Shown here: positions 10,240 through 36,235 of the stretch, piece after piece | Numbering within the stretch: the stretch's first letter is position 1 | Layout: every line of letters starts with the position of its first letter | DNA from: a gamma proteobacterium SCGC AB-629-P17 | Lineage (GTDB): Bacteria > Pseudomonadota > Gammaproteobacteria > PS1 > Pseudothioglobaceae | DNA: 36,235 nt | Direction of reading: 5' to 3' | Assembly: GCA_000372785.1 (NCBI GenBank) | Contig: KB889759.1 | Coordinates: 1 to 36,235 of the forward strand | Made by a program: the position numbers and the translations under genes | The notes under the pieces: model-generated | Database searches by the model: none | Told to the model about the DNA's origin: nothing | Seen by the model: only the letters and a program-made list of their open reading frames with translations

Positions 10240-11073
10240 ATGATGTCTGATTCAAACTTGTCTAATCTTAGCGTGGAATTTATGCGCCCGCCTGAACAGG
10301 TTATGCGTTTAGATAGAATGGGATCTTCTCATCAAACTAGGCTAAGCTTTATGCGCTCTCTGATTAGACGCATGTCTAGGGAGAATTGGAAATTTGAATG
10401 TCTTCGACGTGATATTGATAATGACGGTTTTGGTGTAAGTGTTTATGCTGTAACTACCCCACTAAGAACATACTCATTGATTGCTTTTACTCAGGATATT
10501 CCACCAAAAAAACGTACCGACAGAGTCATAGCAGAAGTTTGGGATGCTACTTTTAACTTGTATGATGGTATTCCAACTCAAGCAGATATAGATTATTTGG
10601 CGAACAATACTCCTAAACAGGAAGGTGGTAGATATCGCCCCAGTGAACTTGTTTTAGCGAGAGCTAATAAAAGTTTGAGAGTTTTCGAACACGTTATATC
10701 CACACTAGCGAAAGGCAATCAACCAGATATTGAATTGCTGTCTTCAGTAGGTTACTTGATGCGCACTACAGCAGTTTATGGTAGTGGTAAATTTGGTTGC
10801 GCTGATAGAGCTAAAATTGCTGACCGTGAAGAGTGTAAGGGTGCATTTCAAATTGAACTTCTAGCCGTATACTTAATTCGTTGGTTCACGATAGATTTGG
10901 CTGAGCATTTGGCGAGAAAAAGAGGTGGTGACAAGGCAGTTAAGTTTGAACCACATATTCGTCAATTTATCGGTGTTGGTAATGCTACTGGTTTAGGTAT
11001 GGCTCCCTTTTTGTTAAAACATCCTGTTTTAATTCATAACCTGGCAGCTAAACACTCACGATGCACTGCTTGA
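10240..11073 (+). pseudogene. Uncharacterised protein, N-terminal 268 codons, cut at an inverted-repeat junction
   Basis: The frame begins MMSDSNLSNLSVEFMRPPEQ 10 bp after the M19 gene. It encodes authentic protein to HPVLIHNL (residue 268, base 11044), then runs into about nine junk codons read from the opposite strand of soxA. The same bases 10950-11044 recur inverted at 36141-36235, where the reading frame continues for another 300 or so codons. Joining the two gives 568 residues. The protein is soluble, rich in Arg and aromatic residues, with no signal peptide or recognised catalytic motif. ERVIAEVWD-like and GRYRPSELVLARANKSLRVFE segments look conserved but I cannot name a family. As it stands here it is a truncated copy. 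Confidence 0.8.
10950..11044. repeat. 95-bp perfect inverted repeat, left copy
   Basis: Identical, as the reverse complement, to 36141-36235. The match ends abruptly at 11044, where the two sequences diverge (CAGCTAAACAC here, TCATGGCC in the other copy). It lies inside the uncharacterised gene, encoding PHIRQFIGVGNATGLG and the residues after it. The soxA stop codon at 11034-11036 also falls within it. Confidence 0.95.
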
Positions 11074-13022
11074 TGAATATTTTCACCAGTTTTTGGATAA
11101 TACCAGGGACGATACCATTGCCCTACAACTTCAAACTCTGCGCCACTTGCAACATGGGAATCATGGATTGTCGTATAGCGTTGAGGATCAAAAAAGTCTC
11201 CAACCTCTCTACCTGCCATAGCGCCAAAATCTACTCCAGTATACGCAGGACGAAAAGTCGTCGTGCCTACTTCCGACATCGTGATTCCCAACAATTCGGC
11301 TGTGACTGCAATACCATTAATATTGCCTGTTTTCCCTTGGTCAGTCCCAAATCCCATGGCTGTATAGCGTTTAATATGTTCAATCGAACGATAGCCTTCT
11401 CTTATTGAAAGGGCGACATCCAAAGTAGTCACATCATTTTGCAAGTCAAGGAATACTTTTGGTTTATTGAGGATTTCTTTTGGGGTAAAAAATTGACTAA
11501 CATTGAAATAGTTCGAGTAATTTTCACTCAAGATTTCTTGTGTCAACTTGCTAAAAGTACCCAACGCATTGAGAGTAAATTGGGCTTTATTTTTGCCATC
11601 ATTGATGGCATCTTGCCAAGCGCCTGCGCCTGCTACTGCGCCACATACCTCCCTATTATCTCGTTCTTGTTGTGGTAAAAATGATTGTGAAACTTCATCA
11701 AAATAAGTTTTAGCACCGTTATGACAGTCAAGATGCACGACTGGATTAAAGCCGCCAGAAGTTGCCACCAAGTCACAACTCAATGTTTGTGTATCTCCAA
11801 AAACCTGCCAATTATTATCTTGAAGCCTTGTTTGTACAATTTCAACACCTGTAACCCGGTGCGAACCAAGCGCTTTAACAATAGAATAACCCTGTAAAAC
11901 CTTTACACCTGAGTCTTTTAGTTCGGCAACAATCTCAATGGGTTCTTCGGATGACCTGACGTCAACAACTACACATTCAATGTCATTAACATGGAGGTCT
12001 CTGGCGGTACTATAAATACTGTCATTGTTGCCATATACAACAACTTTTTTACCTGAAATTACACCATATTCATGCAGGTAACGTCTCACTGACTGACTCA
12101 ACATAATATTGGTCAAGTCATTGGCCTCAAAAAGCATAGGGCGTTCATGGGCACCAGTCGCTAAAATGACTTCTTTGGCCCGAATTCTATGCACTATTTT
12201 TCTAGCCTTTTGAGGCTCCGATGAAGTTAATGACTCAGCTGTTGTGATGGTTTCTAGAACTTCAATGAAGTTCTGGTCATGCCACGCATAGGCAGTTGAT
12301 TGGGTCAGCAAGGTAAATCGTTCACTGTCCTCATTAGCAAAAGATAATAATCTATTAACACTGTCCTTGTGCCATGTCATGGCTGCTTCATCACTCGAGA
12401 ATTCATTAAATAATTCGCCACCTAATTGACTGCGTTCATCAACCAGAATAACTCTTTCTTTCTGAGAATTATTGAGAACCCCCAATGCTGCTGAAATGCC
12501 TGCAGCACCGCCACCAATGACAACGACTTCAGCATGATGAAAGATATGGTCGTAAACATCAACATCTTCCTCGGTTGGCGCTTTGGAAAAGCCTGAAAAT
12601 GCACGGATACGGTCTTCTACTTTTGCCCAAACCTTTTGTTTGATAAAAGTCTTATAGTAAAAACCGGCCGGCATAAAACGATGCAATGGTTTGATAAAGG
12701 CTCGCATATCGAATGCATTTGGGTTGCTGGCACTGATAGCACTTAGGCCATCATAGAGCATAATTTCAGTAGCCTTTAGGTTAGGCGTATAACGACCACC
12801 TATTTCTAATGATACCAAGGCATTTGGCTCTTCAACGCCTGCAGCCATTAGGCCCCGTTTTCGTCCATACTTAAAACTTCTTGTAAACAAAAGGGCATCA
12901 TTCGCCAGTAATGCAGATGCTAAGGTGTCGCCCTCATAACCTTTATAGCGTTTATTGTTAAAAATAAAATTTAACGACTTAGAATAGTCAACTTGATGGC
13001 TTGGATGTTGCGCTAATCTCAT
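11034..13022 (-). pseudogene. soxA: Sarcosine oxidase alpha subunit, lacking the C-terminal aminomethyltransferase domain
   Basis: A 662-residue frame; family members are close to 1000. The N-terminal region GYEGDTLASALLAND is the 2Fe-2S-like fold; the dinucleotide loop is VVVIGGGAAGISAALG near residue 168; a second Rossmann segment (KKVVVYGNNDSIYS) is near 325. The sequence then reaches YRPWYYPKTGENIHQAVHREC, where the GcvT-like tetrahydrofolate domain normally begins with LAARN. Instead it ends LAARL-stop, the last two codons and the stop being read from the inverted repeat. About 330 residues and soxG are therefore missing from this window. The alpha subunit shapes the tunnel to the folate site that converts the released methylene to 5,10-methylene-THF. 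The start overlaps the soxD stop (ATGA). Confidence 0.9.
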
Positions 13023-13303
13023 AATTCAGTCTCGCTATTTCTTGCACCGAAAGGTGCCACTTGTAATATCTGGTGACTGATAGTTGAGCGCTCTACCAAA
13101 AAATATTTTCGACAGCCGTTAGTGTGAACCCATTGTTCCCAATGATTGCCTTTGTGGTTTGTGCGGTAAAAAACGTAATCGGCCCACTCTTCGTCACTGA
13201 TACCTTCTGGACTTTCAGGCCTTGCAATAAACGCCTCTCCAGCTGGGGAAAATTCACTCTGGTCTCTTGATTCTTTGCAGTATGGACAATGAATTAATAG
13301 CAT
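13019..13303 (-). CDS. soxD: Sarcosine oxidase delta subunit
   Basis: A 94-residue small zinc subunit of heterotetrameric sarcosine oxidase. The zinc ligands expected of the family are visible: Cys6 and Cys9 in HCPYCK, His60 and Cys64 in VHTNGCRKYF. The segment SDEEWADYVFYRTNHKGNHW is also typical. It stabilises the complex and has no separate activity. It sits 19 bp after soxB and overlaps soxA by 4 bp, the canonical B-D-A order. Confidence 0.95.
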   Translation of the reverse strand: MLLIHCPYCKESRDQSEFSPAGEAFIARPESPEGISDEEWADYVFYRTNHKGNHWEQWVHTNGCRKYFLVERSTISHQILQVAPFGARNSETEL

Positions 13304-13322
13304 ATTATTACCTTTTTATTAA

Positions 13323-14573
13323 CTAGTGAGCCACACCTGCAGCGCCGTGCTCGTCAATTAAACCGCCAGTTGTAAAACGATCAATGTGGAATGGCTCTGC
13401 TAGTGGGTGCTGTTTGTCTTGTGCAATGGTATGTGCAAAAACATTGCCAGAGCCTGGTGTTGCTTTAAAGCCTCCTGTGCCCCAACCACAATTAAAGTAC
13501 AAACCCTCAACCTTTGTCGGACTAATAATAGGGCAAGCGTCAGGACAGACATCAACGATACCGCCCCATTGTCTGTTCATACGGACGCGCGAGAATATTG
13601 GAAATAATTCCAATATAGCTGCAGCAGCATGCTCGACAATCTTTGTGCTGCCTCTCTGAGCATAGGAGTTATAACTATCAATCCCAGCACCGATGACAAG
13701 GTCTCCTTTATCACTTTGACTAATATAGCCATGAACAGCGTTAGACATCACAACAGTATGTAGTACCGGTTTCATTGCTTCAGAAACAAATGCCTGCAAA
13801 GGATGGCTCTCAATTGGCAATCTAAGACCAGCCATTTTTGCCAGCACTGAAGAATGACCTGCACTGACACAACCAATACGGTCTGCCATAATTTCTCCTT
13901 TGGTTGTTTTAACGCCTTTCACTCTTCCTTCTTCGACCTCAATATCAATCACTTCGCAGTCTTGAATGATGTCAACCCCAAGCATTGAAGCAGCTCTAGC
14001 AAATCCCCAAGCAATACCATCATGTCTTGCAACACCCCCGCGTGCCTGATAGGAAGCACCCATAATTGGATATCTTGCATTTTTTGATGTATTTATAATT
14101 GGAATTTGTTGCTTTATCTCATTAGCGTCAACAACCACAGCATCGACACCATTCAGAACGTTTGCATTAACTCTACGTTCAATATCTCGCATATTTTGTA
14201 GGCTATGACCTAGATTGTAGACACCTCTCTGGCTAAACATGACATTAAAATTGAGATCTTCACTGATACCTTCCCAAAGTTTCAGTGCATGTTCATAAAG
14301 GCTTGAAGCCTCATCTCTAAGATAGTTTGAACGAATAATAGTAGTGTTTCTACCGGTATTACCACCACCAATATAACCTTTTTCGACAACAGCAACATTG
14401 TTGATGCCGCATTCTTTTGCTAAATAGTAAGCTGTCGCTAAGCCGTGCCCACCACCGCCAATGATAATGACGTCATATTTAGATTTAGGTTGAATCAACG
14501 GAATCGCTTGATCCCAATCTTGGCCACTCAAGCCAGCCTTTAGTAGTGAATACCAGGAATATTTTTTTTGCAT
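13323..14573 (-). CDS. soxB: Sarcosine oxidase beta subunit
   Basis: A flavoprotein of 416 residues from the ATG at 14573; a TTG four codons upstream is less likely. The FAD loop is [18 protein letters not shown] around residue 36, followed by Glu in [21 protein letters not shown] places His184 at the position that carries covalent FMN in the family (about His173-175 in characterised enzymes). [15 protein letters not shown] near the C-terminus is the substrate-site and FAD-contact region. It catalyses oxidative demethylation of sarcosine to glycine. It heads the soxBDA operon, and its promoter must lie in the 280-bp gap to the divergent oxoprolinase gene. Creatinase 7.5 kb away would supply sarcosine. 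Confidence 0.95.
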
Positions 14574-14853
14574 AATTCTACTCAATCAATAAATCTATAA
14601 TTCCAGAACATAATATATAAAATCGCAATTGTAGCACTCAGTGTTATGTAAATCCCTGAGAACACAAAATATACAGAGACTATACTTCAATATCTATTAC
14701 TAACAGTTTATTAATTAAATTAAAGCAGAAAGTAAAAAGAGTGAATTTTATCAATGAAGTATGATCAAAGCAATAATTTTGTTCTGACCATAATAAAACT
14801 TGCAGATTGAATTTAAAATATACTATATCAATTCAAACTTAACTGCGTAGTGC

Positions 14854-17800
14854 ATGAATTTAAAACCTCAACAGGATAAAAAACTTTGGCAATTTTGGAT
14901 TGATCGTGGCGGAACCTTTACAGATATCGTTGGCTGCAACCCAGATGGTGAGATTTTGATACATAAATTACTCTCTGAAAATCCAAATCAATATTCTGAC
15001 GCTGCGATTCAGGGCATACGAGATTTGCTCAAGTTAACTCATGAAGAGGCAATCCCAATGACTCAAATTGATGTCGTAAAAATGGGTACAACGGTTGCCA
15101 CAAATGCCTTACTAGAAAGACAAGGGGAAAAAACATTGCTTGCAATTACTCAAGGTTTTAGTGATATCTTAAGAATTGGTTATCAAAATAGACCCAAACT
15201 CTTTGCAATCGATATTCAACTACCAGAAATGCTTTACAGTGACGTTATTGAAATTGACGAGCGCCTAGACCCGCATGGTTATGTTATTAAACCGCTTGAT
15301 GAAAAAAACACCGAAAAGCAATTGCAACAATATTTTGTTGATGGTTATAGAACAATTGCAATTACCTTGATGCATGGCTATCGATATCCTGAACATGAAA
15401 AAAAAATAGCATCCATTGCGCAGAGAATTGGTTTTACTCAAATTTCGATTAGTCACCAAGTCAGCCCCTTAATGAAAATTATTCCTAGAGGTGATACTAC
15501 TGTTCTAGACGCATATTTATCTCCAGTACTTAGACGATATGTCAGCCAAGTAGAAAACGCACTGGGCAGAGAAGCAGAACAGACAGGTCGCTTAATGTTT
15601 ATGCAATCCAATGGTGGACTAACCGATGCGCGCTTCTTTGCAGGAAAGGATGCAATACTTTCAGGACCTGCAGGTGGTGTTGTAGGAATGGCTAAAACAG
15701 CAAAAGAAGCAGGTTTTAATAAGTTAATTGGGTTCGACATGGGTGGCACCTCAACAGATGTCTCTCATTTCGCTGGTGATTACGAACGCGCCTTCGAAAC
15801 CGAAGTTGCTGGAATCCGATGTTGCGCGCCAATGATGCTCATCCATACCGTTGCCGCTGGTGGAGGCTCTATACTTCATTTTGACGGATCACGCTATAGA
15901 GTTGGTCCTGATTCTGCAGGCGCCAATCCAGGTCCCGCATGTTATCGAAATGGAGGACCTTTAACGATTACAGATTGTAATGTCATGTTAGGCAAATTAG
16001 ACCCAGACTTCTTTCCTAAAGTTTTTGGTCCGAAAGCTGACCAATCTCTTGATATTGAAGTTGTAAAAGAGAAATTTAATGATCTAACAAAAAAAATCGA
16101 ACATGCAACCGGCAAACCAACCTCACCCCAAGAAGTTGCAGAAGGTTTTCTATCTATCGCCATTGACAACATGAGCAATGCTATCAAAAAGATCTCAGTT
16201 CAGAGAGGTCATGATGTAAGTGACTACACCTTATCGTGTTTTGGTGGTGCAGGCGCACAGCATGCATGCCTAGTGGCAGACAATTTGGGGATGAAGCAAA
16301 TCCACCTCCACCCATACGCAGGGGTTTTGTCAGCATTTGGTATAGGTCTTGCAGACACTCGCACAATTAACGACATGGCAATTGAAGCTCAACTTGATCA
16401 ACAACTGATCACAACCATTTCTTTAGAACTTGAGACACTCAAACAAAAAGGCGTTGAAGACTTATTAGTCCAAGGATTAGATACCTCAACACTGATCTAC
16501 CATAAACGTGTTTATATCCGCTATCTAGGCTCAGATACAGCAATAGCTGTCACCTTTAACGATCTTGAGGAACTTATAAAAGAATTTGAAAGCATTCATT
16601 TTGACCGATTTGGCTTCACTTCTCCTGAAAAAAAATTGTTAGTTGAGTCCATTCAAGTCGAAACTGTATCAAAAAGTACACAAACTACCTTAAAACGAAG
16701 CTCCTTAGGCACAAAGAAAATCTCAAAATTGGCTGAACGCCAAGCTGTAATGGTCGGCAATAAACTCAATGTTTGTTTTTATGATCGTGAACAAATCCCT
16801 ATACACTTTGAAATTAAAGGGCCTGCAATTATCATTGAACAAGCCTCCACTATTGTTATTGAGCCAGGCTGGAAGGCACAGCTTTCATCAAATAATGATT
16901 TAATTCTAGAACGAATTGAACCACTCAAAAGGCAAAACGCTATAGGCACTAATGTTGACCCTGTGATGCTTGAGATATTTAATAACCTGTTTATGAATAT
17001 TGCTGAACAAATGGGTACGGTCCTTGAAAATACTGCGGCCTCCGTGAACATCAAAGAGAGACTTGACTTTTCCTGCGCAATTTTTACACCTGAAGGTGAG
17101 CTTGTAGCCAATGCACCACATATACCAGTACATTTAGGATCAATGAGTGAATCCATAAAAACAACTATTCGTGAAAACGCCACCTCAATGAAACCAGGTG
17201 ACGCATTTTTAATGAATGCACCCTACAACGGAGGGACTCATTTACCTGATATCACCTTAATCAAACCCGTATATGATGAGAACAATAGTAAGGTCATTTT
17301 TTATGTTGCTAATCGTGGACATCACGCTGATATTGGAGGCATGACACCTGGCTCTGCACCTGCCAACTCGACACATGTTGATGAGGAAGGAGTTCTCATA
17401 GACAACTTCAAACTTGTATCTTCAGGCAAATTTTTAGAAAGTGATATACATCAACTGCTGGATTCTGGTCCCTACCCTTCAAGAAATATTAAACAAAATA
17501 TCGCTGACTTAAAAGCACAAGTAGCTGCAGCAGAAAAGGGCGCGAAAGAATTACTAATTATCATCGAGCGCTATGGTCTTGATGTTGTCCATGCTTATAT
17601 GCAGCACGTACAAGACAATGCAGAGGAGTCAGTTCGCAGGATTTTAGATGTGCTGGAAGATACTAGCTTCACCTACAAAATGGACGATGGTCATCAAGTA
17701 AGTGTTGCCATTAAGGTTGATAAAATAAGACGTTGCGCAACGATTGATTTTACTGGCACCAGTTCACAACACCCCGGCAACTATAATGCGCCAATTGCAA

Positions 17801-18486
17801 TCTGCTATGCCGCTGTACTTTATGTCTTTCGCTGTCTAATTGATGATGATATCCCGCTAAATAATGGATGCTTTAAGCCACTGAATATAATCGTACCTGA
17901 GAAGAGTATGATTAATCCCGTCTATCCAGCCGCCGTTGTCGCCGGCAATGTTGAGACTTCTCAATATATAGTTGATGCACTGTTTGGCGCCTTGGGGAAG
18001 ATGGCTGCATCACAGGGCACAATGAATAATTACATTTGGGGAAATGACAGAATACAAAACTATGAAACTATATGTGGTGGTTCTGGCGCTAGTGCACATC
18101 AAAACGGATGTAGTGCAGTTCAGACTCATATGACTAATACCAGATTAACAGACCCAGAAGTTTTAGAGTGGCGCTTTCCTGTAAGACTTGAAACTTTTAA
18201 AATTAGAAAAAACTCGGGTGGCAAAGGCAAGTACAAAGGCGGAGAGGGGGTGGAGCGACAGATGCGCTTTATTGAGCCAATGACCGTTAATATGATTGCT
18301 GGACATCGAATTGAACCTCCTTATGGAATCGCAGGTGGTGAACCGGGTGCGATTGGTGAAAATTATGTCGTTCACTCTGATCAAAAAGTGACAGATATAG
18401 GAACAAAGGGTCAAGTCGAAGTTAAAAAAAATGATATTTTTATCTTAAAAACTCCCGGTGGTGGTGGTTATGGCCATCCTGACTAA
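14854..18486 (+). CDS. Fused ATP-dependent 5-oxoprolinase / hydantoinase (HyuA-HyuB)
   Basis: A 1210-residue single-chain enzyme like eukaryotic OPLAH (about 1290). The N-terminal HyuA half starts with WIDRGGTFTDIVG (nucleotide-binding) and contains FDMGGTSTDVSHF near residue 295. The HyuB half begins about residue 700 (DPVMLEIFNNLFMNIAEQ) and contains YNGGTHLPDI, NRGHHADIGG, SHMTNTR-type HMTNTRLTDPE and a closing TPGGGGYGHPD. It uses ATP to open a cyclic amide: 5-oxoproline to glutamate in OPLAH, or N-methylhydantoin to N-carbamoylsarcosine in creatinine degraders. The fused, OPLAH-like layout favours 5-oxoproline; the creatinase and sarcosine oxidase neighbours favour an N-methylhydantoin-type substrate. 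The bacterial enzymes are often split into two chains. Confidence 0.88.
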   Translation: MNLKPQQDKKLWQFWIDRGGTFTDIVGCNPDGEILIHKLLSENPNQYSDAAIQGIRDLLKLTHEEAIPMTQIDVVKMGTTVATNALLERQGEKTLLAITQGFSDILRIGYQNRPKLFAIDIQLPEMLYSDVIEIDERLDPHGYVIKPLDEKNTEKQLQQYFVDGYRTIAITLMHGYRYPEHEKKIASIAQRIGFTQISISHQVSPLMKIIPRGDTTVLDAYLSPVLRRYVSQVENALGREAEQTGRLMFMQSNGGLTDARFFAGKDAILSGPAGGVVGMAKTAKEAGFNKLIGFDMGGTSTDVSHFAGDYERAFETEVAGIRCCAPMMLIHTVAAGGGSILHFDGSRYRVGPDSAGANPGPACYRNGGPLTITDCNVMLGKLDPDFFPKVFGPKADQSLDIEVVKEKFNDLTKKIEHATGKPTSPQEVAEGFLSIAIDNMSNAIKKISVQRGHDVSDYTLSCFGGAGAQHACLVADNLGMKQIHLHPYAGVLSAFGIGLADTRTINDMAIEAQLDQQLITTISLELETLKQKGVEDLLVQGLDTSTLIYHKRVYIRYLGSDTAIAVTFNDLEELIKEFESIHFDRFGFTSPEKKLLVESIQVETVSKSTQTTLKRSSLGTKKISKLAERQAVMVGNKLNVCFYDREQIPIHFEIKGPAIIIEQASTIVIEPGWKAQLSSNNDLILERIEPLKRQNAIGTNVDPVMLEIFNNLFMNIAEQMGTVLENTAASVNIKERLDFSCAIFTPEGELVANAPHIPVHLGSMSESIKTTIRENATSMKPGDAFLMNAPYNGGTHLPDITLIKPVYDENNSKVIFYVANRGHHADIGGMTPGSAPANSTHVDEEGVLIDNFKLVSSGKFLESDIHQLLDSGPYPSRNIKQNIADLKAQVAAAEKGAKELLIIIERYGLDVVHAYMQHVQDNAEESVRRILDVLEDTSFTYKMDDGHQVSVAIKVDKIRRCATIDFTGTSSQHPGNYNAPIAICYAAVLYVFRCLIDDDIPLNNGCFKPLNIIVPEKSMINPVYPAAVVAGNVETSQYIVDALFGALGKMAASQGTMNNYIWGNDRIQNYETICGGSGASAHQNGCSAVQTHMTNTRLTDPEVLEWRFPVRLETFKIRKNSGGKGKYKGGEGVERQMRFIEPMTVNMIAGHRIEPPYGIAGGEPGAIGENYVVHSDQKVTDIGTKGQVEVKKNDIFILKTPGGGGYGHPD

Positions 18487-18555
18487 TATATCTATTTATA
18501 ATGGAGCAGACTTACCTAGACGCTCATCATTAAAACTGGAACAGAGAGTTGAACT

Positions 18556-19449: not shown

Positions 19450-21060
19450 ATGACTAGTTACGATTACATTATTGTCGGCGCTGGTTCATCAGGCTGTGTA
19501 TTGGCCAATCGTCTCAGTGCAAATCCTGAAAATAGTGTTTGTTTGATTGAAGGAGGCGGTAGCGACAAAAGTCCATGGATTCAAATTCCAGCTGGAATTT
19601 TTGGAGTGTATGGCCACAAGGAGTTTGATTACGCATACCAAGGGGTACCTCAAATAAACCTAAATAATCGTACTATCACAGTCAATCGTGGCAAGTGTCT
19701 TGGCGGCTCCAGTTCAATCAACGGTATGATCTACATACGTGGCAACAAAAATGACTATGACAATTGGGCTAAACAGGGCTGTGAAGGCTGGTCCTACGAG
19801 GAAGTACTGCCTATATTTAAAAAAATTGAAAATGACCAAACAGGGGGAGATCCACAATATCACTCATCAGATGGAGAATGGCCAGTAGTTAAACCACAAG
19901 ATGTGAACGCAACTGCCAAACGCTTTGTTAAGGCTGGAGAAAAAATCGGACTACCTCATAATCATGACTTTAATGCCAACTCACAATTGGGCCTCGGAAT
20001 TTATAATGTAAACCAAAACAAGGGCACTCGAGTGAGTTCTTATACAGCCTTTGTCGAACCTATTCTAACAAGACCAAATCTGACAATCCTGACCCATGCA
20101 AGGGTTAAAACACTAGATATTGAGGGCGATTGTGCTAAGGCTGTCAATATAGTAATTAATGCAACCGATAATAGATTAATTTGCAACAAAGAAATTATTC
20201 TTAGTGCCGGTGCTATAGATTCACCCAGAATCCTCCTTGCCTCAGGCATTGGAAATAAAAAGGACCTTGACGAGCTAGAAATAACTTGCAAACACGACGT
20301 GGTTGGTGTTGGTGAGAATCTTCAAGATCACCTAGACTCTATGGTTACTATTCGTTCGAAAAAAGCTGAATCTATAGGTGTCTCGTGGAAATCTTTATTA
20401 CCTGATGTAATTACTGCCCCGTTTAAATACTATTTTAATAAGATGGGCTGGTGGACAACAAATTATGTCGAAGCAGGCGGCTTTGCTGATACCAAATATG
20501 CCAATATAGACTACCCAGATGTTCAGTTTCACTTTACTCCCATTTATAGAAGTCACCGCGGCAAAAAATTTGAATTTGGTCATGGCTACTCGCTTTTCAC
20601 TTGCTTATTGCGTCCTCACAGCACTGGCTCTATCAAATTGGACAGGGATGGATCGAAATTCAAACTTCTTATTGATCACAATTTTTTATCTGACCCAAGA
20701 GATGAAACAATCATAATCGAAGCAGTAAAAAAAGCCAGAGAAGTCCTATTATCGACAGAATTTGACGAAGTTCGTGGCAAAGAAATGGCTCCAGGTAAAA
20801 CAGTACAAAGCGATCAAGAAATATTGGAATACATACGCAAAACTGCACTAACGGTCTACCATCCAGTTGGAACCTGCAAAATGGGAATTGATGAACTAGC
20901 GGTGGTTTCGCCAGAAAATTTAAAGGTAAAAGGGATGCATAATTTGCGTGTTGTCGATGCCTCAATTATGCCAACCATTGTCAGCGGGAATACCTCAGCG
21001 CCAACCATGATGATTGCAGAAATGGGATCGAAAATGATACTGAATGAATCGTACTCCTAA
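19450..21060 (+). CDS. GMC-family FAD-dependent oxidoreductase (choline/alcohol dehydrogenase-like)
   Basis: A 536-residue glucose-methanol-choline oxidoreductase. It has the FAD loop YIIVGAGSSGCVLANRL at residue 5, GGGS, the GMC signature 1 region NRGKCLGGSSSINGMIYIRG, signature 2 GAIDSPRILLASGIG near residue 258, the active-site His in VYHPVGTCKMG, and the partner Asn in SGNTSAPTMM. It is often annotated as choline dehydrogenase (BetA), but the family is broad and the BetA-specific context (betaine aldehyde dehydrogenase BetB, BetI) is absent. It lies 30 bp after the DUF1989 gene, so it is probably in the same transcript. The alcohol substrate is unknown. Confidence 0.85.
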   Translation: MTSYDYIIVGAGSSGCVLANRLSANPENSVCLIEGGGSDKSPWIQIPAGIFGVYGHKEFDYAYQGVPQINLNNRTITVNRGKCLGGSSSINGMIYIRGNKNDYDNWAKQGCEGWSYEEVLPIFKKIENDQTGGDPQYHSSDGEWPVVKPQDVNATAKRFVKAGEKIGLPHNHDFNANSQLGLGIYNVNQNKGTRVSSYTAFVEPILTRPNLTILTHARVKTLDIEGDCAKAVNIVINATDNRLICNKEIILSAGAIDSPRILLASGIGNKKDLDELEITCKHDVVGVGENLQDHLDSMVTIRSKKAESIGVSWKSLLPDVITAPFKYYFNKMGWWTTNYVEAGGFADTKYANIDYPDVQFHFTPIYRSHRGKKFEFGHGYSLFTCLLRPHSTGSIKLDRDGSKFKLLIDHNFLSDPRDETIIIEAVKKAREVLLSTEFDEVRGKEMAPGKTVQSDQEILEYIRKTALTVYHPVGTCKMGIDELAVVSPENLKVKGMHNLRVVDASIMPTIVSGNTSAPTMMIAEMGSKMILNESYS

Positions 21061-27069: not shown

Positions 27070-27092
27070 TACTGCCCCCTATTTTGTTTTTT

Positions 27093-28217: not shown

Positions 28218-28291
28218 TAAAATAATTACTTAAAAACTCATTTTTATCTACTGAAAAATGCAGTCAAAACTAGCGCTTAAAGAGAAGCATT

Positions 28292-28331
28292 ATTATATTC
28301 TCTTATTTTAATTTGATTCAATTTATTGAAT
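28292..28331 (-). promoter_or_regulatory. Putative gcv promoter with overlapping palindrome
   Basis: On the minus strand TTGAAT (28321-28316) and TATAAT (28297-28292) are spaced by 18 bp and lie about 75 bp upstream of the gcvT start. A perfect dyad ATTCAAT-TT-ATTGAAT (28316-28331) overlaps the -35 element and could bind a regulator. I saw no glycine-riboswitch core in the 203-bp gap 28218-28420. Confidence 0.45.
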
Positions 28332-28420
28332 TAAATTATCTTCAAACGGATAATGACTTATCTGATAGTTTTGTCGCGGGTATTATTTGGGTTAGCTCGT
28401 CCATCTGATTGTTATTCTAT

Positions 28421-29359
28421 TTAGTAACCTTTGACGCTATCATAAACCGGAAACGGCCGTTTCCCATCCTCCATTCGGCGAATATTTTCAGCAATCGTTT
28501 TTGCTGAAGATTGCGGATTGCTTTGTCCTGCAATATGAGGCGTAATGTAGACGGACGGGTGAATCCAGAGAGGACTATTTACAGACAAAGGCTCTTGTTC
28601 AAATACATCCATAGCCGCGGCAGTAATGTGTCCTTCATCTAGTAGAGAGCATAAATCTGCTTCGTTGACAATGCCCCCTCTACCCATATTTATAATAAAT
28701 GCACCTCTAGGCAAACGTTGAAGCTCTTGTTTTCTGAGTATATTAGTTGTGCCTTCAGTTAAAGGCAGTACGTTAATTAATATATTTGTCTTACCCAAGA
28801 AATCGCCTAACTGCTCATCTCCAAAAAAATATTTGATATCACCCAAAGATGATTTTTGATGGGCGCCCCATCCCAAAACCTTAAAACCTTGATTAACTAG
28901 TGAATCGCCAATACCTCTTCCAATATTACCCAAACCCATTATTCCAACTGTCCTATCTTCGGGCTGTATGGAGCCTTTCTGTTGCCATTTTTTGTCCTTC
29001 TGTTGTTTCATGTACAGAAAGTGGTCACTATGAAAATGCAACACCCAATGAAGAGCATGAAAACACATCTCGTGCGTTAATTTAGGGTCAACTAAACGAA
29101 CAATTGGTAAATCCACTGGTAAATCGGGATCACTGAGAATATGATCCACTCCTGCGCCTAAAGATAGAATTGCCTTTAAATTTGGGTATTTCTTTAAAAT
29201 TCCATGGGGATGCTTCCATGCCGCTACGTACTTAATTTCATTAACATCACCATCATCAGGATATACCCGAACATCCATCTCGGGCAACTCTACCTGGACC
29301 CATTGACGCCAAATTTTTTCATCTTCCCAAAATTCACTAACCGAAATTAATAATGCCAA
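28421..29359 (-). CDS. ghrA: Glyoxylate/hydroxypyruvate reductase A-like 2-hydroxyacid dehydrogenase
   Basis: A 312-residue D-isomer-specific 2-hydroxyacid dehydrogenase of the GhrA type. The NAD(P) loop is GIMGLGNIGRGIG near residue 140. The catalytic triad is Arg in NMGRGGIVNE, Glu in DVFEQEP and His in ITPHIAGQS. The start is a TTG: an in-frame stop lies just upstream and AGGAG at 29366-29370 is 6 nt before it, so no ATG start is possible. The AG of the preceding gene's stop codon forms part of that site, indicating coupling. It reduces glyoxylate or hydroxypyruvate to glycolate or glycerate, and fits a serine/glycine or C2-C3 hydroxyacid role. Confidence 0.85.
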   Translation of the reverse strand: MALLISVSEFWEDEKIWRQWVQVELPEMDVRVYPDDGDVNEIKYVAAWKHPHGILKKYPNLKAILSLGAGVDHILSDPDLPVDLPIVRLVDPKLTHEMCFHALHWVLHFHSDHFLYMKQQKDKKWQQKGSIQPEDRTVGIMGLGNIGRGIGDSLVNQGFKVLGWGAHQKSSLGDIKYFFGDEQLGDFLGKTNILINVLPLTEGTTNILRKQELQRLPRGAFIINMGRGGIVNEADLCSLLDEGHITAAAMDVFEQEPLSVNSPLWIHPSVYITPHIAGQSNPQSSAKTIAENIRRMEDGKRPFPVYDSVKGY

Positions 29360-29365
29360 AACTGA

Positions 29366-29370
29366 CTCCT
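29366..29370 (-). promoter_or_regulatory. Ribosome-binding site that decides the TTG start of ghrA
   Basis: AGGAG, 6 nt before the TTG codon at 29359-29357, overlaps the TAG stop (29371-29369) of the upstream gene. It supports a non-ATG start and translational coupling. Confidence 0.7.
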
Positions 29371-30268
29371 ATTTTTTGTTTCTCAGCTGTTGATTATGTT
29401 TTTCTTCAATTAATCGAACAACACTTAAATGAGGCGCCTCATCGCCGTACACCTTTATTGCTTCTTGATAAGTGTTATAAACTTTTTCCCCGAGTGGAAT
29501 TGAGATACCAAGATGCTGGCCGAGTTCGACAATCAGTTTCATATCTTTTTCAGCTAGCCCAAGTGCAAACGATGTATCGTAGCTTCCATCCAATACTTTT
29601 GGGATATAGTTTTCAACTACATAACTTTGAGAACAACTATTCATCAACACTGAATGAAGGGCGTCTAAGTCCAAATTAGCTTTTGCTCCCATCATTAGAG
29701 TCTCCCCAATACCTTGTGCAGTAAGATAATTTAAATGCAGTTGTACCAATTTGGTGACATAGCCTGATCCTGATGGGCCCATACGAACTACCTTATTTGC
29801 ATAAACTTTTAATAACGCTTCAAACTTTTGCAAAACTTCTTTTTCAATACCAAGAAAGGTAGTTAAAGTTCCTGCCTGAGCTCTCTCAGCTCCACCACTA
29901 ACTGGAGCATCAACAAGTGTCAGATGGGTAGGTGCAATTGCTTTAATTTTTTCCCAGTGTGACAACTCGTTTGTACTGGTTTCAAACCATGTAGCGCCTT
30001 CTTTTAAGGTTTTCAAAATACCTTTTTCACCTGTTGCTAAAAGATTGATCTCTTTTGAACTAGGTAGTGATGTAAATAACACATCACACTGTGGACACAT
30101 ATTTGATGTACCTTCTCCATCAATAGCTCCTTTGTCAATAAATTCAGTTAAGACTGTTTTATTAATATCAAATACAATTAAGTCATCTCCTGAGTCTTTA
30201 CAGTACGTTAATAAATTATGTGCCATACCAGCACCCATATTACCTAGACCAATAAATCCTATTTTCAT
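29369..30268 (-). CDS. 3-hydroxyisobutyrate dehydrogenase / tartronate semialdehyde reductase family
   Basis: A 299-residue beta-hydroxyacid dehydrogenase. The NAD(P) loop GFIGLGNMGAGMAHNL starts at residue 4. The substrate-binding segment is DAPVSGGAERAQAGTL near residue 122, and the catalytic Lys is in GYVTKLVQLHLNY near 172. The family oxidises 3-hydroxyisobutyrate, 3-hydroxypropionate or related acids, or reduces tartronate semialdehyde to glycerate. The neighbours (GhrA-like reductase, class II aldolase, enolase-superfamily dehydratase) suggest a sugar-acid or C3/C4 hydroxyacid pathway, but the substrate is not determined. It starts 9 bp after the oxygenase gene and overlaps the ribosome-binding site of ghrA. 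Confidence 0.82.
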   Translation of the reverse strand: MKIGFIGLGNMGAGMAHNLLTYCKDSGDDLIVFDINKTVLTEFIDKGAIDGEGTSNMCPQCDVLFTSLPSSKEINLLATGEKGILKTLKEGATWFETSTNELSHWEKIKAIAPTHLTLVDAPVSGGAERAQAGTLTTFLGIEKEVLQKFEALLKVYANKVVRMGPSGSGYVTKLVQLHLNYLTAQGIGETLMMGAKANLDLDALHSVLMNSCSQSYVVENYIPKVLDGSYDTSFALGLAEKDMKLIVELGQHLGISIPLGEKVYNTYQEAIKVYGDEAPHLSVVRLIEEKHNQQLRNKK

Positions 30269-30277
30269 GCGTTATAC

Positions 30278-31162
30278 CTAGTCAGTTAAATTGTCGGGTC
30301 GTTCTAAATTGCGCTCATGATGGATCTGCATTGAGCGTCCATAGAAAGCTTCAGCGTGATGAGGCCTGTTCACCAAGTATGGATTTTTTACATATGTTGG
30401 TAGGGCAATGATTCTTGGTGAGTCACCCCGAGTGACAGTGACCCTATGCAACGAATAACGCCCACTAAATATTTGTAAATCCCCCGTTTTTAATCTTAAC
30501 ACCTTTACTTTGTCACGATCACCTTCAAGTATGCTTTTTACACCCTCAAAGTTTTCATTGCCTGGTGAACGAATATCCGGGACATACTCAAAGTCCCCAC
30601 CCTTGTTGGATTCATTGACAAGTATGCTGACCGTAAAGTCATTACCATCAAAGTGCCATGGGAAATAGTCGCCATTGTTCATAATACTATATGGGTTTCG
30701 ACCTAAAGGTTCTGCCCATCGATAAATAGGTCCAACATTTAAACATTCAGAGACAAAATGCACTACTACGTCAGAATCATAGATTTTTCTGAGCACTGAA
30801 TCGCTTTCTAAAAAATCTGAATTTATAAATGAAGATGTTCTTTCTTCAAAAAAACGCTTAGGGTGATCCTTTGGCAAAGTAGTATCTTCTTCTGTAAGAT
30901 ATGGATTAACCAATGTATGTGCTCTTCTAGCCACACCCATAAGTCGGAATGCTTCATCTTTCATTTTCTTAATTGCCGAAGGTAAAATGAAATCAGGTAT
31001 ATGTGCGCACCCCCATTTTTTTATATCTAAATGACAATCTTCAACTAATGAAGCCCTATTTGGATTGGTTAAGTCATGGATTGGAAATTTCTCTAGATCA
31101 ATAAATTCATCTAAACGAATTTCTGCAGAACTATAGGCTGAAGGAACACTAATTTCCGACAT
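30278..31162 (-). CDS. 2-oxoglutarate/Fe(II)-dependent oxygenase (HalD/BesD- or PhyH-like)
   Basis: A 294-residue double-stranded beta-helix oxygenase. The iron facial triad is visible as His and Asp in FPWHFDGNDF near residue 170 and the distal His in GRYSLHRVTVTRGDSPR near 240, where the following Arg is the likely 2-oxoglutarate ligand. The surrounding pattern (WAEPLGRNPYSIMNNGDYF, FEYVPDIRSPGNENFEGVK) resembles the family labelled HalD/BesD-like. True halogenases replace the Asp with Gly; here Asp is kept, so hydroxylation or oxidative dealkylation is more likely than chlorination. It lies 13 bp after the class II aldolase and 9 bp before the next gene, so it is in the same operon. Substrate unknown. 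Confidence 0.75.
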   Translation of the reverse strand: MSEISVPSAYSSAEIRLDEFIDLEKFPIHDLTNPNRASLVEDCHLDIKKWGCAHIPDFILPSAIKKMKDEAFRLMGVARRAHTLVNPYLTEEDTTLPKDHPKRFFEERTSSFINSDFLESDSVLRKIYDSDVVVHFVSECLNVGPIYRWAEPLGRNPYSIMNNGDYFPWHFDGNDFTVSILVNESNKGGDFEYVPDIRSPGNENFEGVKSILEGDRDKVKVLRLKTGDLQIFSGRYSLHRVTVTRGDSPRIIALPTYVKNPYLVNRPHHAEAFYGRSMQIHHERNLERPDNLTD

Positions 31163-31175
31163 AATTCTTCCCTAT

Positions 31176-31913
31176 TTATTTTTTATAAGAGGGGTCCAGT
31201 CGGTCACAACGACGCAACAAAGCTGGCCACTCATAAATACCTGGAGCAAAAGCTTCATATTGTTCACAGGCTAACTTCCACATTTCAGGGCTAGTCTTTA
31301 CTCTAGATAGAGAGGAAGACTCCACTTGCAGGGCGACTTCGCACATACGAATTAAATAATACATTTTCATAAAACACTCGCCAGCCGTCTCACCAGCAGT
31401 TAAAAAGCCATGGTTTCGCATCACTAACAAGCCATGCTCGCCCATATTCCTAGAAATACGGTGACGTTCATCAGGATCAACTGATAAGCCTTCCCAGTCA
31501 TGGTATCCAACTTTGCCATAAAGCATGGATGAGTCCTGAATTAAGTAGGGTATTTCCCCAAAAACAGTTGCAGCAATCGCACTGGGTGGATGAGCATGGA
31601 AAACAAATTTATTATGCGGATGATTTAGGTGGATTGCACTGTGAATAATAAATCCCGCCGTATTAACATCCTCAGGCCCTTCCAAAACATTTCCATGTTC
31701 GTCAACCTTGATTAAATTTGAAGCACACACTTCTTCATAACTAAGACCAAAACGATGCATATAGAAATGATGATCTGAGCCTGGTACACGTGCGGTAATA
31801 TGATTCCAAATAGTATCATCCCAACCGTACATAGCGGTCAGTCTAAACATAGCAGCTAAGTCAACTTTGACTTTTTCTTGTTGCTGTTCTAAATTTAACG
31901 TAGTTTTGCTCAT
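31176..31913 (-). CDS. Class II aldolase/adducin-family protein
   Basis: From the ATG at 31913 (a TTG at 31925 is less likely) the product has 245 residues. The zinc ligands of class II fuculose-type aldolases are visible: His-x-His in VFHAHPPSA near residue 105 and a later His in MRNHGFLTAGET near 163. DDTIWNHITARVPGSD and the HRFGLSYEEV region are typical of the aldolase/adducin-like group that is common in bacteria and rarely characterised. Possible reactions are retro-aldol cleavage or decarboxylation of a hydroxyacid. It is the first gene of an operon with the 2OG oxygenase and two dehydrogenases, divergent from the enolase-superfamily gene. Confidence 0.83.
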   Translation of the reverse strand: MSKTTLNLEQQQEKVKVDLAAMFRLTAMYGWDDTIWNHITARVPGSDHHFYMHRFGLSYEEVCASNLIKVDEHGNVLEGPEDVNTAGFIIHSAIHLNHPHNKFVFHAHPPSAIAATVFGEIPYLIQDSSMLYGKVGYHDWEGLSVDPDERHRISRNMGEHGLLVMRNHGFLTAGETAGECFMKMYYLIRMCEVALQVESSSLSRVKTSPEMWKLACEQYEAFAPGIYEWPALLRRCDRLDPSYKK

Positions 31914-31984
31914 GTTATAAAACAATAGTTAAAATCCGAATTATAAACCAGAATTACCTAACTACTGTTGATAAAATAAAGTTG

Positions 31985-33064
31985 ATGAAAATTACCAAAA
32001 TAGCTACTCGAATTATAAATTTACCCTTTGAAAGTACTATTACAACCGCTGTCCACGAAATGTCATCAGTTGGTTGTGTTTTGTTAACTATTGAAACTGA
32101 CGAAGGGATAGAGGGACAGAGTTATTTGTTTAGTTTGAATGCTGCTAATATTCATTCCTTTGATGAAAAACTCAAAGGTTTTGAAATGCATCTGATTGGT
32201 AAAGACCCTCACCTTATCGAAGTTATTGAGCAAGAGATTTGGCAAACAATTAGTTCAGTTAAAAATACACATATTGCTATTGCAGCTCTTTCAACAATTG
32301 ATACCGCTATTTGGGACATTGTTGGTAAAACAGCTAACTTGCCTCTTCACCGACTTTTTGGAGCCTGCCGTGAAAAAATAAAAACTTATGCCAGTGGTGG
32401 ATTATGGCTATCTCAATCAATCGATTCACTACTAAAAGATGCACAAAACTTTCTCGACCAAGGTTTTCGTTCTATGAAAATTCGTGTTGGCAGTAATGAC
32501 TGGAAGAAAGATGTTGAACGTGTCAAAGAAGTCAGAAATGCTATCGGCATGGAAATTGAACTGATGGCAGATATCAATCAAGCACTGCAGCCTAAACAGG
32601 CGATTCAACTTGGGGAAAATCTGAAAGAATATGATTTGCTATGGCTAGAAGAACCAGTAGCATCTAATAACCGTGTTGGTCATGCTGAAGTTAGAAGCGC
32701 ACTAGCTACCCCAATAGCTTCGGGTGAGAACGAATACAGTCTATCCGGTATGCATGAAATGATTGAAGCCAAAGCTTGTGACATTCTAATGCCCGATTTA
32801 CAACGCATTGGTGGGATTTCTGAGATGCGCAAAGTTGCAGATTTGGCCGAGTCTTACAATCTACCAATTTCAACTCACGTCTTTACCGAACATAGTTTGA
32901 GTGTTGCTGGATCATCTTCTAATTGTCTTTCAGTAGAACATATGCCCTGGTTTTCTAAGTTGTTCAATGAACAAATCGTTGTTGTCAATGGTTTTATAGA
33001 TATACCTGAGCGCCCAGGAACAGGTTTTACTTTTAACGATACATATATAGAAGAATTTCTGTAA
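31985..33064 (+). CDS. Mandelate racemase/muconate lactonizing enzyme family (enolase superfamily)
   Basis: From the ATG at 31985 the product has 359 residues. The N-terminal capping domain (about 1-120) is followed by a TIM barrel with Lys-x-Lys-like FRSMKIRVG, metal ligands Asp in MADINQA, Glu in WLEEPV and Glu in ASGENEY, and a catalytic His in STHVFTEHS. This layout fits the mandelate racemase subgroup, which includes sugar-acid dehydratases and racemases. The substrate is unknown. The gene diverges from the aldolase operon by about 70 bp, so the two probably share a control region, and serine dehydratase follows after 14 bp. Confidence 0.87.
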   Translation: MKITKIATRIINLPFESTITTAVHEMSSVGCVLLTIETDEGIEGQSYLFSLNAANIHSFDEKLKGFEMHLIGKDPHLIEVIEQEIWQTISSVKNTHIAIAALSTIDTAIWDIVGKTANLPLHRLFGACREKIKTYASGGLWLSQSIDSLLKDAQNFLDQGFRSMKIRVGSNDWKKDVERVKEVRNAIGMEIELMADINQALQPKQAIQLGENLKEYDLLWLEEPVASNNRVGHAEVRSALATPIASGENEYSLSGMHEMIEAKACDILMPDLQRIGGISEMRKVADLAESYNLPISTHVFTEHSLSVAGSSSNCLSVEHMPWFSKLFNEQIVVVNGFIDIPERPGTGFTFNDTYIEEFL

Positions 33065-33078
33065 AAGGTAAAAGTATT

Positions 33079-34458
33079 ATGTTTATTAGTGTTTTAGATT
33101 TATTTAAAGTAGGAATTGGCCCGTCAAGCTCTCACACTATGGGTCCAATGGTTGCTGCCAACGACTTTATGCAATATGTCAGAGAATTTGCAAACGCCAA
33201 TCCAGAAATCAATAATTACCAGATTAGATGCACACTAAAAGACTCTTTGGCATACACAGGTGTGGGACATGGTACAGATCGAGCAGTAACGCTTGGTTTG
33301 CATGGCTATTTACCAAATACAATTATCAATGAGAAAATAAGTGAAGTGATTGAGCGTGTTTGTGCGGCAAAAAGTGTGCCTATCAATGTTAAACAAAATG
33401 CATCTTTCTTCTCAGAAAACGACATAATTTTTGATACCACAAATTCATTAAAACAAAACCCAAATGGATTGATTTTTGATCTCCTTGATAATACAAATAG
33501 GATACTCATATCTCATACGTATTTTTCTATCGGTGGTGGCTTTATATCAACTTTGGAAGAAATAGATAATATTGAAGCTCCGATTGCTTATGAGCCAAGC
33601 GAGTCTTACCCTTTCCCTTTTGACAACTCAAACGAGATGCTGGAAATGTCAGCAAAGAGCAACAAAACAATCTGGGAAATAGCAAAGGCCAACGAACTAC
33701 ACAATATTTCCGAGAAAGAACTCAACGATAAGCTAGATCAGATCTGGGCTGCAATGCGAAGTTGCGTTGAAAGTGGACTTTCAGCAGAAGGCATCTTGCC
33801 TGGTGGCCTAAACACAAAAAGACGTGCAAAAAAATTACATGAAAACCTTCAAAGCGACCCAGAAAATACAATCTTTAACGATTGGCTTTGTGCCTATGCA
33901 ATGGCAGTTAATGAAGAGAATGCTGCTGGTCATTTAGTTGTCACAGCACCCACTAATGGCGCAGCTGGTGTCGTCCCTGCAACTCTCTATTTTTGCTATA
34001 AACACAAATCAGCAACTGCCGAACAAATTCGCCAATTCTTGTTAACAGCTTCCGCAATAGGCGGTCTGATTAAACACAATAGCTCTATATCAGGCGCCGA
34101 AGTCGGTTGTCAGGGTGAAGTAGGTTCAGCTTCATCTATGGCTGCTGCAGGCCTCTGTTCAATAAGAGGAGGCACGAATGCCCAAATTGAAAATGCTGCT
34201 GAAATGGCGCTCGAACATCACTTAGGTATGACCTGTGACCCAGTCAAGGGTCTAGTACAAGCCCCGTGCATCGAACGCAATGGTTTCGGAGCGGTTAAGG
34301 CCTACACTGCGAGCTCCCTAGCGCTCAGAGAAAGTGGCGAACATTTGATTTCTTTAGACCAATGTATATCAGCCATGAAGAAAACAGGCCTTGACATGTC
34401 ACATAAATATAAAGAAACCTCTCTAGGTGGATTAGCGGTAAGCTTTATTGAGTGCTAA
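33079..34458 (+). CDS. sdaA: L-serine ammonia-lyase (iron-sulfur L-serine dehydratase)
   Basis: A 459-residue type II L-serine dehydratase with beta and alpha domains in one chain. The start VLDLFKVGIGPSSSHTMGPM is diagnostic. The cysteines expected to hold the oxygen-labile 4Fe-4S cluster are seen in EVGCQGEVGSAS, MTCDPVKGLV and QAPCIERNG. It deaminates L-serine to pyruvate and ammonia in the cytoplasm. Glycine from sarcosine plus a one-carbon unit can give serine through GlyA (not in the window), so this enzyme would close the route from creatine to pyruvate. AAGG about 10 nt upstream supports the ATG. Confidence 0.95.
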   Translation: MFISVLDLFKVGIGPSSSHTMGPMVAANDFMQYVREFANANPEINNYQIRCTLKDSLAYTGVGHGTDRAVTLGLHGYLPNTIINEKISEVIERVCAAKSVPINVKQNASFFSENDIIFDTTNSLKQNPNGLIFDLLDNTNRILISHTYFSIGGGFISTLEEIDNIEAPIAYEPSESYPFPFDNSNEMLEMSAKSNKTIWEIAKANELHNISEKELNDKLDQIWAAMRSCVESGLSAEGILPGGLNTKRRAKKLHENLQSDPENTIFNDWLCAYAMAVNEENAAGHLVVTAPTNGAAGVVPATLYFCYKHKSATAEQIRQFLLTASAIGGLIKHNSSISGAEVGCQGEVGSASSMAAAGLCSIRGGTNAQIENAAEMALEHHLGMTCDPVKGLVQAPCIERNGFGAVKAYTASSLALRESGEHLISLDQCISAMKKTGLDMSHKYKETSLGGLAVSFIEC

Positions 34459-34506
34459 ATGACATCTGATTTTTTCAATTAACGCAGAATTCACCTCAAA
34501 AAAAAA

Positions 34507-35238
34507 TTAATCTGTATCAACCATTCCTGCGCCCGCACCTGAGGCACGAGACTCGGCTGTTGATTTCACCAAACAACGCGAAAAATAGTCGTAAATGCCT
34601 GGCCAGTGCTCTCCGACCTTGACTCCGGTTTGGAGTATTTTTTCTTTTTCTTCAATTGTAACAAATTTCTTTAAAACCGCATTGGCGGGGTATTTTTTTG
34701 TTTCAACTAGGGGACGAATAATCATACTCCCTCCCTTGCTTGACTCTATCGGCTGCGTATTTGAACTAACCATTTCCCAAACTCCGGGCTCAGTAAAGTT
34801 TACTAAATACTCGTAATTACTCTCATCCAACCAGATTGCCTGCCAACCACTACATTGATTTGCTCCCATTGCTGCAATCACCAGTAGCGGTGAATCTACA
34901 TTTTTAACAATCAATTCAACACCTCGAGATCCGATATTAATCCAATCGACGACACTTACAGAGGCAATTAGAGAAGATAAATACACATTATTTGGATTAA
35001 CGAAATGAATCTGCGAATCAGACTTTTGCAACTCTACAGCCAAATCACTTGCATGACTATCAAGATTATTAAGCGCTTCTATACTGCAACTAGAAGGATC
35101 AAAACCGTTTGCTGCTATCCACATATTACTGCTTGCAAAATCCTCGGATATACCGATCGGAGCATTCACCCCAAATCCAGCACGAGTGAAGAAAAACAAC
35201 ACCTCATTAAGTGAAATAGTTAATTGTTCTGTTGCCAC
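34507..35238 (-). CDS. DUF3726-like protein of unknown function
   Basis: A 243-residue protein starting with GTG placed directly after the TAG stop of the preceding gene, so coupling is certain in outline. The opening LTISLNEVLFFFTRAGFGV followed by PIGISEDFASSNMWIAANGF resembles the DUF3726 family pattern (SLNEI, RA, G.P.G.AE, W.A.G) as I remember it; this is a weak, short-motif match. It has no signal peptide, membrane segment or known catalytic motif. It is not convincingly SoxG, although SoxG was considered. It forms a pair with the uncharacterised 568-residue protein, and by restoring the inversion the pair would follow ALDH and the M19 protein. Confidence 0.6.
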   Translation of the reverse strand: MATEQLTISLNEVLFFFTRAGFGVNAPIGISEDFASSNMWIAANGFDPSSCSIEALNNLDSHASDLAVELQKSDSQIHFVNPNNVYLSSLIASVSVVDWINIGSRGVELIVKNVDSPLLVIAAMGANQCSGWQAIWLDESNYEYLVNFTEPGVWEMVSSNTQPIESSKGGSMIIRPLVETKKYPANAVLKKFVTIEEKEKILQTGVKVGEHWPGIYDYFSRCLVKSTAESRASGAGAGMVDTD

Positions 35239-36235
35239 CTAAATTACCTGCTTTGGTGTAACAGGGAAGAACCAATTGTCGCAATCAGGATTAGATAACT
35301 GATCTGGCATTGGAGCCCCTTGATACATTGAGATTCTAGTCCATAGGTCTGACTTGGGGTCAAATTTAGAAGCACCAAAAAACGCCAACTTGAAGCGCAA
35401 CAAATCCAACGGCCTCATAGACTCATCCAATAAATTATCCTGAACTTCGGAATAAGGTCTTTGAAGAGTGTTTTGGATACGACGGATAATATGTCTAAAC
35501 TTTGGGAAAGACAGTACAAACTCACCTACCAACGTTTCATCACTTGCTGAAAACAAGGCGTGGTTAAGTTCATGTGCATCTCGACCTATAGCCAAGGGCA
35601 TTTCTTGTTCCGAACCTTCATCAACATCACGAGAGCCAAAACGTGGTTCTAATTTATCTTCTGAGTAATACCAAAAATGATGCTGTGACTCTGTGAGCGT
35701 GAAATCAATTGAAGTTGCCCAAACATAGTAATCTTTAACGATCTCTTTTAATTGACTTAGCGTCATGTCAGCTACCAACTTCGGAGTAGAGGCGGAAGAC
35801 ATTGTTTCAGCCAAATCATCCACCAAAGATCCATGAGGTTCGATGATTAAAGACACAACCATTTCTTGGCATTCTAAGGAAAAACGATCTTCAACATACT
35901 GATAGATTCCATTCCATGGGTAGGGCTTAAATAAGTTAATTTGATCACTGCACCAATGACTAAGTGATTCAATTTCATCCTTAAGACGATCAATTCTTGT
36001 TGTTTGCACTTCATCCTCTACAGACCACTCTCTAAGGTGTTGGCTCACTTGGATCAGTGACTTCGTAAATTTTTCAAGCGTGCCTTTGAGAGGAGTTTCC
36101 ATACTTCTGACTCTTGCTAATGCGCTTTCTTTGGCCATGACCAGGTTATGAATTAAAACAGGATGTTTTAACAAAAAGGGAGCCATACCTAAACCAGTAG
36201 CATTACCAACACCGATAAATTGACGAATATGTGGT
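35239..36235 (-). CDS. Uncharacterised protein, C-terminal 332 codons, 5' end beyond window
   Basis: The frame is open to the end of the window and encodes PHIRQFIGVGNATGLG, then continues past the repeat with VMAKESALARVRSMETPLKG. Residues match the last part of the truncated gene at 10240-11044, then extend into a real C-terminal half. Joined at the repeat the protein would have 568 residues. The C-terminal half is soluble and mostly alpha-helical by composition, with conserved-looking WSVEDEVQTTRIDRLKDEI and KPYPWNGIYQYVEDRF, and ends FFPVTPKQVI. I recognise no family. It is followed directly by the DUF3726-like gene (TAG then GTG). This copy is the intact version as far as can be seen. 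Confidence 0.85.
   Translation of the reverse strand, partial: PHIRQFIGVGNATGLGMAPFLLKHPVLIHNLVMAKESALARVRSMETPLKGTLEKFTKSLIQVSQHLREWSVEDEVQTTRIDRLKDEIESLSHWCSDQINLFKPYPWNGIYQYVEDRFSLECQEMVVSLIIEPHGSLVDDLAETMSSASTPKLVADMTLSQLKEIVKDYYVWATSIDFTLTESQHHFWYYSEDKLEPRFGSRDVDEGSEQEMPLAIGRDAHELNHALFSASDETLVGEFVLSFPKFRHIIRRIQNTLQRPYSEVQDNLLDESMRPLDLLRFKLAFFGASKFDPKSDLWTRISMYQGAPMPDQLSNPDCDNWFFPVTPKQVI
36141..36235. repeat. 95-bp perfect inverted repeat, right copy, reaching the window end
   Basis: Exact reverse complement of 10950-11044 over all 95 positions. The match stops sharply at 36141 on the inner side and at the last base of the window on the outer side, so the true length may be greater. Confidence 0.95.

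Follow-up and report, generated by a model that had tools for sequence, protein, structure and literature searches.

An exact 95-bp inverted repeat at the end of a bacterial contig most probably marks an amplification chimera seen through a fixed-length assembly overlap

Introduction

Adjacent edges of a SPAdes assembly overlap by k bases. The settings SPAdes -sc -k 25,55,95 are printed for single-cell genomes (PMC8364033) and likewise for mini-metagenomes (PMC7065516); two other single-cell studies give SPAdes --careful --sc, with no list of k in the accessible part of their text. As for the chimeras that arise in multiple-displacement amplification (MDA), the accessible text of one survey counts 406 inverted among 475, of which 337 spanned less than 10 kb, and finds shared bases in 93.5% of the inverted chimeras shorter than 10 kb and in 34.8% of the longer ones (Lasken and Stockwell 2007, PMC1855051). 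Another paper, as far as its accessible text goes, puts the peak of the overlaps at 6 nt and the distances at 0 to ~5 kb (PMC4595205).

Here we analyse a window of 36,235 bp, the whole stretch of DNA under study, which is at the same time an entire contig (C3) of the genome G000. The assembly of this genome consists of 1,424,092 bases in 70 contigs and is estimated to be 77.41% complete and 5.41% contaminated. Matches to the soxA gene of the window include records of Candidatus Thioglobus, the SUP05 cluster and the PS1 clade, the four closest at 93-96%. The window ends in an inverted copy of its own interior, and we argue that this repeat is most likely the mark of a misjoined amplification copy that was trimmed to a fixed length by the assembler.

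Results

The two arms of the repeat (Table 1) are 95 nt long and 100% complementary, with 25,096 nt between them, and they form the sole inverted pair of at least 40 bp in the window (repeat search with a minimum length of 40 and a seed of 20), a result with which string comparison concurs. Because the window is the entire contig, the right arm ends where the contig ends. The preliminary description of this DNA had given one arm as the reverse complement of the other, exactly 95 bp long and ending with the sequence itself, and both statements hold, the right arm being the last 95 bases of C3. The arms differ from the very next base (C versus T after 11044): past this position the contig reads CAGCTAAAC, and the opposite strand of its right end reads TCATGGCC. 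A tRNA scan of the window found none.

Table 1 Features of the window (positions from its first base; ALDH and M19 are genes so recognised by Pfam)
Feature	Position	Strand	Remark
Unit e1, left part of the contig, in native order; closes with ALDH, M19 and the first 268 codons (N-terminal part) of the 568-residue gene	1..11044	+
N-terminal 268 residues of the 568-residue gene	10240..11043	+	no Pfam or NCBIfam match
Interior copy of the 95-bp repeat	10950..11044	+	part of the normal coding sequence of this gene
Truncated soxA (sarcosine oxidase alpha), 661 residues matching relatives	11034..13022	-	C-terminal ~345 residues missing
Probable 4-base microhomology CCAG (CTGG on +)	11041..11044	-	deduced from locus L057
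Predicted false (chimeric) junction, splitting the 568-residue gene and soxA at once	11044..11045		not found in 28 same-genus genomes
Unit e2, 25,096-bp loop, drawn opposite to its native orientation	11045..36140		order reversed in G017, G006, G012 and G003
C-terminal 300 residues of the 568-residue gene	35239..36141	-
Predicted native junction inside the 568-residue gene	36140..36141		one open frame across it in relatives
Terminal copy of the 95-bp repeat	36141..36235	-	probable assembler k-mer overlap at the contig end

A gene of 568 residues lies in two pieces at opposite ends of the loop. Joined in native order, its halves give 570 codons from stop to stop, equal to the gene in G017 and G021. 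The N-terminal half was matched just once in each of 13 other same-genus genomes, and in 12 of them it is followed immediately by the C-terminal half within a single open frame of 582-593 residues; in G001 the halves are found at the ends of two contigs, and part of the C-terminal half occurs once more on a third. When a query of 331 residues across the right junction was applied to nine further genomes of the genus, six gave one open frame of 566-586 residues. No match to the gene was found in G005 and G008 with the half-gene queries, or in G018, G020 and G023 with the 331-residue query. The native join is thus present in 18 of the 19 same-genus genomes possessing the gene, and because the gene is whole in one open frame in these relatives, the comparison points to 36140/36141 as the native junction. 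Flipping 11045-36140 was said in the preliminary description to restore the 568-residue gene beside ALDH, M19 and a DUF3726-like gene; the restored gene (268 + 300 = 568) and the two named neighbours stand, the latter by Pfam, whereas the DUF3726-like label for 34507-35238 is unconfirmed, since neither Pfam nor NCBIfam gave a match.

The same description had 11044/11045, the junction that we take to be the false one, damaging soxA together with the uncharacterised gene, in agreement with what we see: the likeness of soxA to its relatives ends at residue 661, and its open reading frame covers only positions 8-654 of the 996 in the TIGR01372 profile, scoring 659.6 bits where the cut-off is 1164. 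Among the 21 same-genus genomes with an orthologue (at least 67% identity), the soxA frame is at least 1007 residues long in 19. The exceptions are G009, with a frame of 756 (C4 122019-124001), and G023, where the gene is split near residue 489 (C10 12861-14844), so neither breaks at 661, and a relative sharing the truncation, which had been named beforehand as one part of the evidence against an artefact, was not among the 21. The same search found only a paralogue in G022 and no match in G020 and G024. The join at 11044/11045, with up to 3 mismatches allowed, was found in its own genome and in none of the 28 other genomes of the genus, where divergence could mask it in the distant ones; a scan of viral contigs, uninformative in itself, gave 0 matches to the false junction. 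The missing tail of soxA was sought in the own genome with a 345-residue query from L055, which returned only paralogues, the best at 43% identity, and contigs shorter than 3 kb, which this search did not cover, could contain it; the native partner of the window's false junction was therefore not found.

The gene order of relatives had been proposed as a check on the rearrangement, and it restores the order predicted by the flip. Compared gene by gene, G017, G006, G012 and G003 all show ALDH, M19 and the 568-residue gene, then the genes of 36140-11045 reversed, and then soxB and soxA, with some genes of the reversed block absent in each of the four. Unit e1 is collinear with G017 in its open reading frames from 691 onward, and with G006, G012 and G003 in ALDH, M19 and the 568-residue gene. 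In all 11 genomes whose 568-residue gene and soxA share a contig (G002, G003, G006, G007, G009, G010, G012, G014, G016, G017 and G019), the two lie on the same strand with soxA downstream. As to individual genes of the loop, the 536-residue open reading frame at 19450-21060 has a counterpart in G017 but lacks one in the G006, G012 and G003 stretches, and the serine dehydratase gene at 33079-34458 has counterparts in these three and none in the G017 stretch.

The length of the repeat recurs elsewhere in the assembly. We compared 76 contig tips of G000 with 774,650 bases, comprising 30 whole contigs and end stretches of six others, and counted self-overlaps for the 71 tips whose own contig was covered wholly or for the nearest 20 kb (C1s, C1e, C2s, C2e and C13s were left out of the comparison with their own interior; s, start; e, end). 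Sixteen of the 71 tips, on 14 contigs, are exact 95-bp inverted copies of the interior of their own contig (C3e, C4e, C5e, C9s, C11e, C12s, C12e, C15e, C17s, C19s, C23e, C24e, C46s, C68s, C68e and C69e), and direct self copies number 0 of 71. When only the 30 wholly covered contigs are considered, the inverted self copies are 12 of 60 tips. Apart from these, self matches of at least 20 bases from a tip number two, of 32 bp (C17e) and 34 bp (C35s). As a weak control, containing only three distinct whole contigs, 11 loci of other assemblies showed no tip self-overlaps.

The 774,650 bases hold 34 maximal exact repeats of at least 40 bp; 19 of these are exactly 95 bp long, and no other length occurs twice. 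Seventeen of the 19 are inverted with one copy at a tip, namely the 16 above and C11 start/C68, which is an overlap between two contigs. Since one fixed length is found on different sequences, the length must have been set by the assembler. The other two are direct and interior (G000:C7 24370/25590 and G000:C69 32586/41882), which is consistent with a path crossing one k-mer twice; the C69 pair has its first 6 bases in common with the interior copy where that copy ends at the false junction. Tips were also seen to overlap other contigs by other lengths: C1 start/C15 by 254 bases, C13 end/C12 by 200, the two ends of C26/C11 by 204 and 253, C2 start/C5 by 81 and C70 end/C4 by 156. The overlaps of C1 start/C15, C13 end/C12 and C26 end/C11 are native partners of false junctions; for those of C26 start, C2 and C70 we offer no explanation, and C70 and C4 also have 800 bases in common.

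The loops of the 16 cases range from 1,224 to 25,096 bp, nine being shorter than 10 kb and that of the window the longest. For five of the 16 junctions the native continuation on the false side is present in another contig, and the bases shared before divergence are 6 at C9/C10, 5 at C11/C26, 5 at C12 start/C13, 7 at C15/C1 and 10 at C68/C11; C5 and C69, whose loop starts matched a second place in their own contig (70- and 95-bp direct pairs), are not counted among the five. At C9/C10, positions 1-7182 of C9 equal 139-7320 of C10 at 100% over 7,182 bases (L211, L213), and positions 1-233 of C10 are the reverse complement of 7177-7409 of C9. C10 is the native form and C9 the chimera of one locus, assembled side by side, and this is the source of a false duplication.

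As for the window's own junction, the probable microhomology was read from soxA of L057, which runs ...GCTGCCAGAACC, against the native gene strand, which runs ...CATGACCAGGTTATG; L055, L056 and L058 vary within the four bases CCAG. The open frame spanning the junction is longer in the native join in 11 of the 16 cases and longer in the chimeric join in five, where a cut gene may be reading on by chance. A soxA paralogue at G000:C4 20933-23694 (L202) is likewise cut by a false junction, its frame of 962 in the contig growing to 995 in the native join, as long as in G017.

Discussion

We put the probability at about 0.95 that what the window presents is no biological rearrangement of the bacterium but an inverted MDA-type chimera, made visible by an assembly overlap of k = 95, and that contig C3 is a record of the assembly graph and not of the chromosome. 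The preliminary description had arrived at the same reading, an overlap of k = 95 at a branch caused by such a chimera, and it gains support from the 16 of 71 tips, the order in four relatives, the native partners at five of 16 junctions and the printed recipe; the value of k, given there as used in some single-cell recipes, does appear in the accessible text of PMC8364033 and PMC7065516. G000 would then be a single-cell or otherwise amplified genome, presumably amplified by a strand-displacing polymerase of the phi29 kind and itself assembled with k = 95.

The order in the cell would be e1, the flipped 11045-36140 and the remainder of soxA. As whole-genome amplification proceeded, a 3' end that was copying soxA in the direction of its C-terminus would leave its template, anneal through about four bases (CCAG) to a displaced strand at the end of e1, 25 kb back, and from there return along e1 as it copied, giving an inverted chimera of the form e1 - loop - e1 reversed; we infer this strand switch step by step. 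With k = 95, the de Bruijn graph would branch at a vertex, made of the final 95 bases of e1, that the loop both enters and leaves, so the assembler would have written out e1 and then the loop in the wrong orientation, ending at this vertex's reverse complement. Some observations count against a chimera: the loop of 25.1 kb is above the usual published range as well as the longest of the 16, the soxA tail of the window was not found, the chimeric frame is the longer one in five of 16 cases, and two of the 95-bp pairs are direct and interior.

A real inverted duplication in the chromosome, consisting of e1, the 25-kb loop and an inverted second e1 of which only the first 95 bases were printed, would look alike in the graph alone, since e1 would be joined to both loop ends. 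However, at least 16 such structures would be required in one 1.4-Mb genome, and at C9/C10 the native form was assembled beside the false one. The four compared relatives have the plain order, and the search of 28 further same-genus genomes did not return the false join. We regard this duplication as very improbable, and many real inverted duplications in one chromosome as all but excluded.

The contig contains both the native and the inverted joins on the side of e1, as might be expected if a mixed population, with 11045-36140 inverted in some of the cells, had been co-assembled into one contig. But a plain inversion should also have joined the C-terminal half of the 568-residue gene to the tail of soxA, and in the contigs searched this tail occurs only as paralogues of at most 43% identity; the inverted join was again not found in the 28 other genomes, and such a mixture seems to us even less credible than the duplication. 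A perfect inverted repeat on both sides of a segment is also what a phase-variable, site-specifically invertible segment with 95-bp recombination sites would leave. Here, however, the repeat consists of plain coding sequence, matched only once in each of the 13 relatives that have the N-terminal half, it lies at a contig end, its exact length recurs at the tips of 13 other contigs, and inversion between true repeats would leave the soxA tail in place, so that the chance of phase variation is negligible. Real inversion, inverted duplication and phase-variable inversion were all rejected on these grounds.

If the repeat is read as the trace of an amplification chimera, the rearrangement and the soxA truncation in G000 are both false and drop out of its record, and 15 further tips of its assembly with the same mark are flagged, together with one 7.2-kb false duplication (C9/C10). 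Where gene order, pseudogenes or duplications are taken from such assemblies, the tips should be checked for an inverted self-overlap of fixed length. Whether exact inverted tip self-overlaps of length k are in general a read-free fingerprint of amplification chimeras, an idea that we do not claim as unpublished, we would call an even bet; if they are, false junctions and split genes could be looked for in public single-cell genomes with no more than the assembly.

Invertible segments would carry their repeats at both ends in relatives, and a single match was found in 13 of 13. Like the inverted MDA chimeras in the accessible parts of the published accounts, the window joins opposite strands with the intervening sequence skipped, within one genomic neighbourhood and with a probable short complementarity at the junction, and the self-overlaps at the 71 tips are 16 inverted and 0 direct. 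Unlike most of those chimeras it has a loop of 25.1 kb, and it is known here from the contig, not from reads; since the spans given in those accounts are mostly below 10 kb, or 0 to ~5 kb, the 25 kb of the window stands at the long end. Like the k-mer overlap expected of a de Bruijn assembler run with the printed SPAdes -sc -k 25,55,95, the repeated stretches at tips are exactly 95 bases each, with equal length at different tips (16 within a contig and one between contigs, C11 start/C68). Unlike an ordinary k-mer overlap, the contig here overlaps with its own reverse strand, as would follow from a chimera that folds the graph onto itself.
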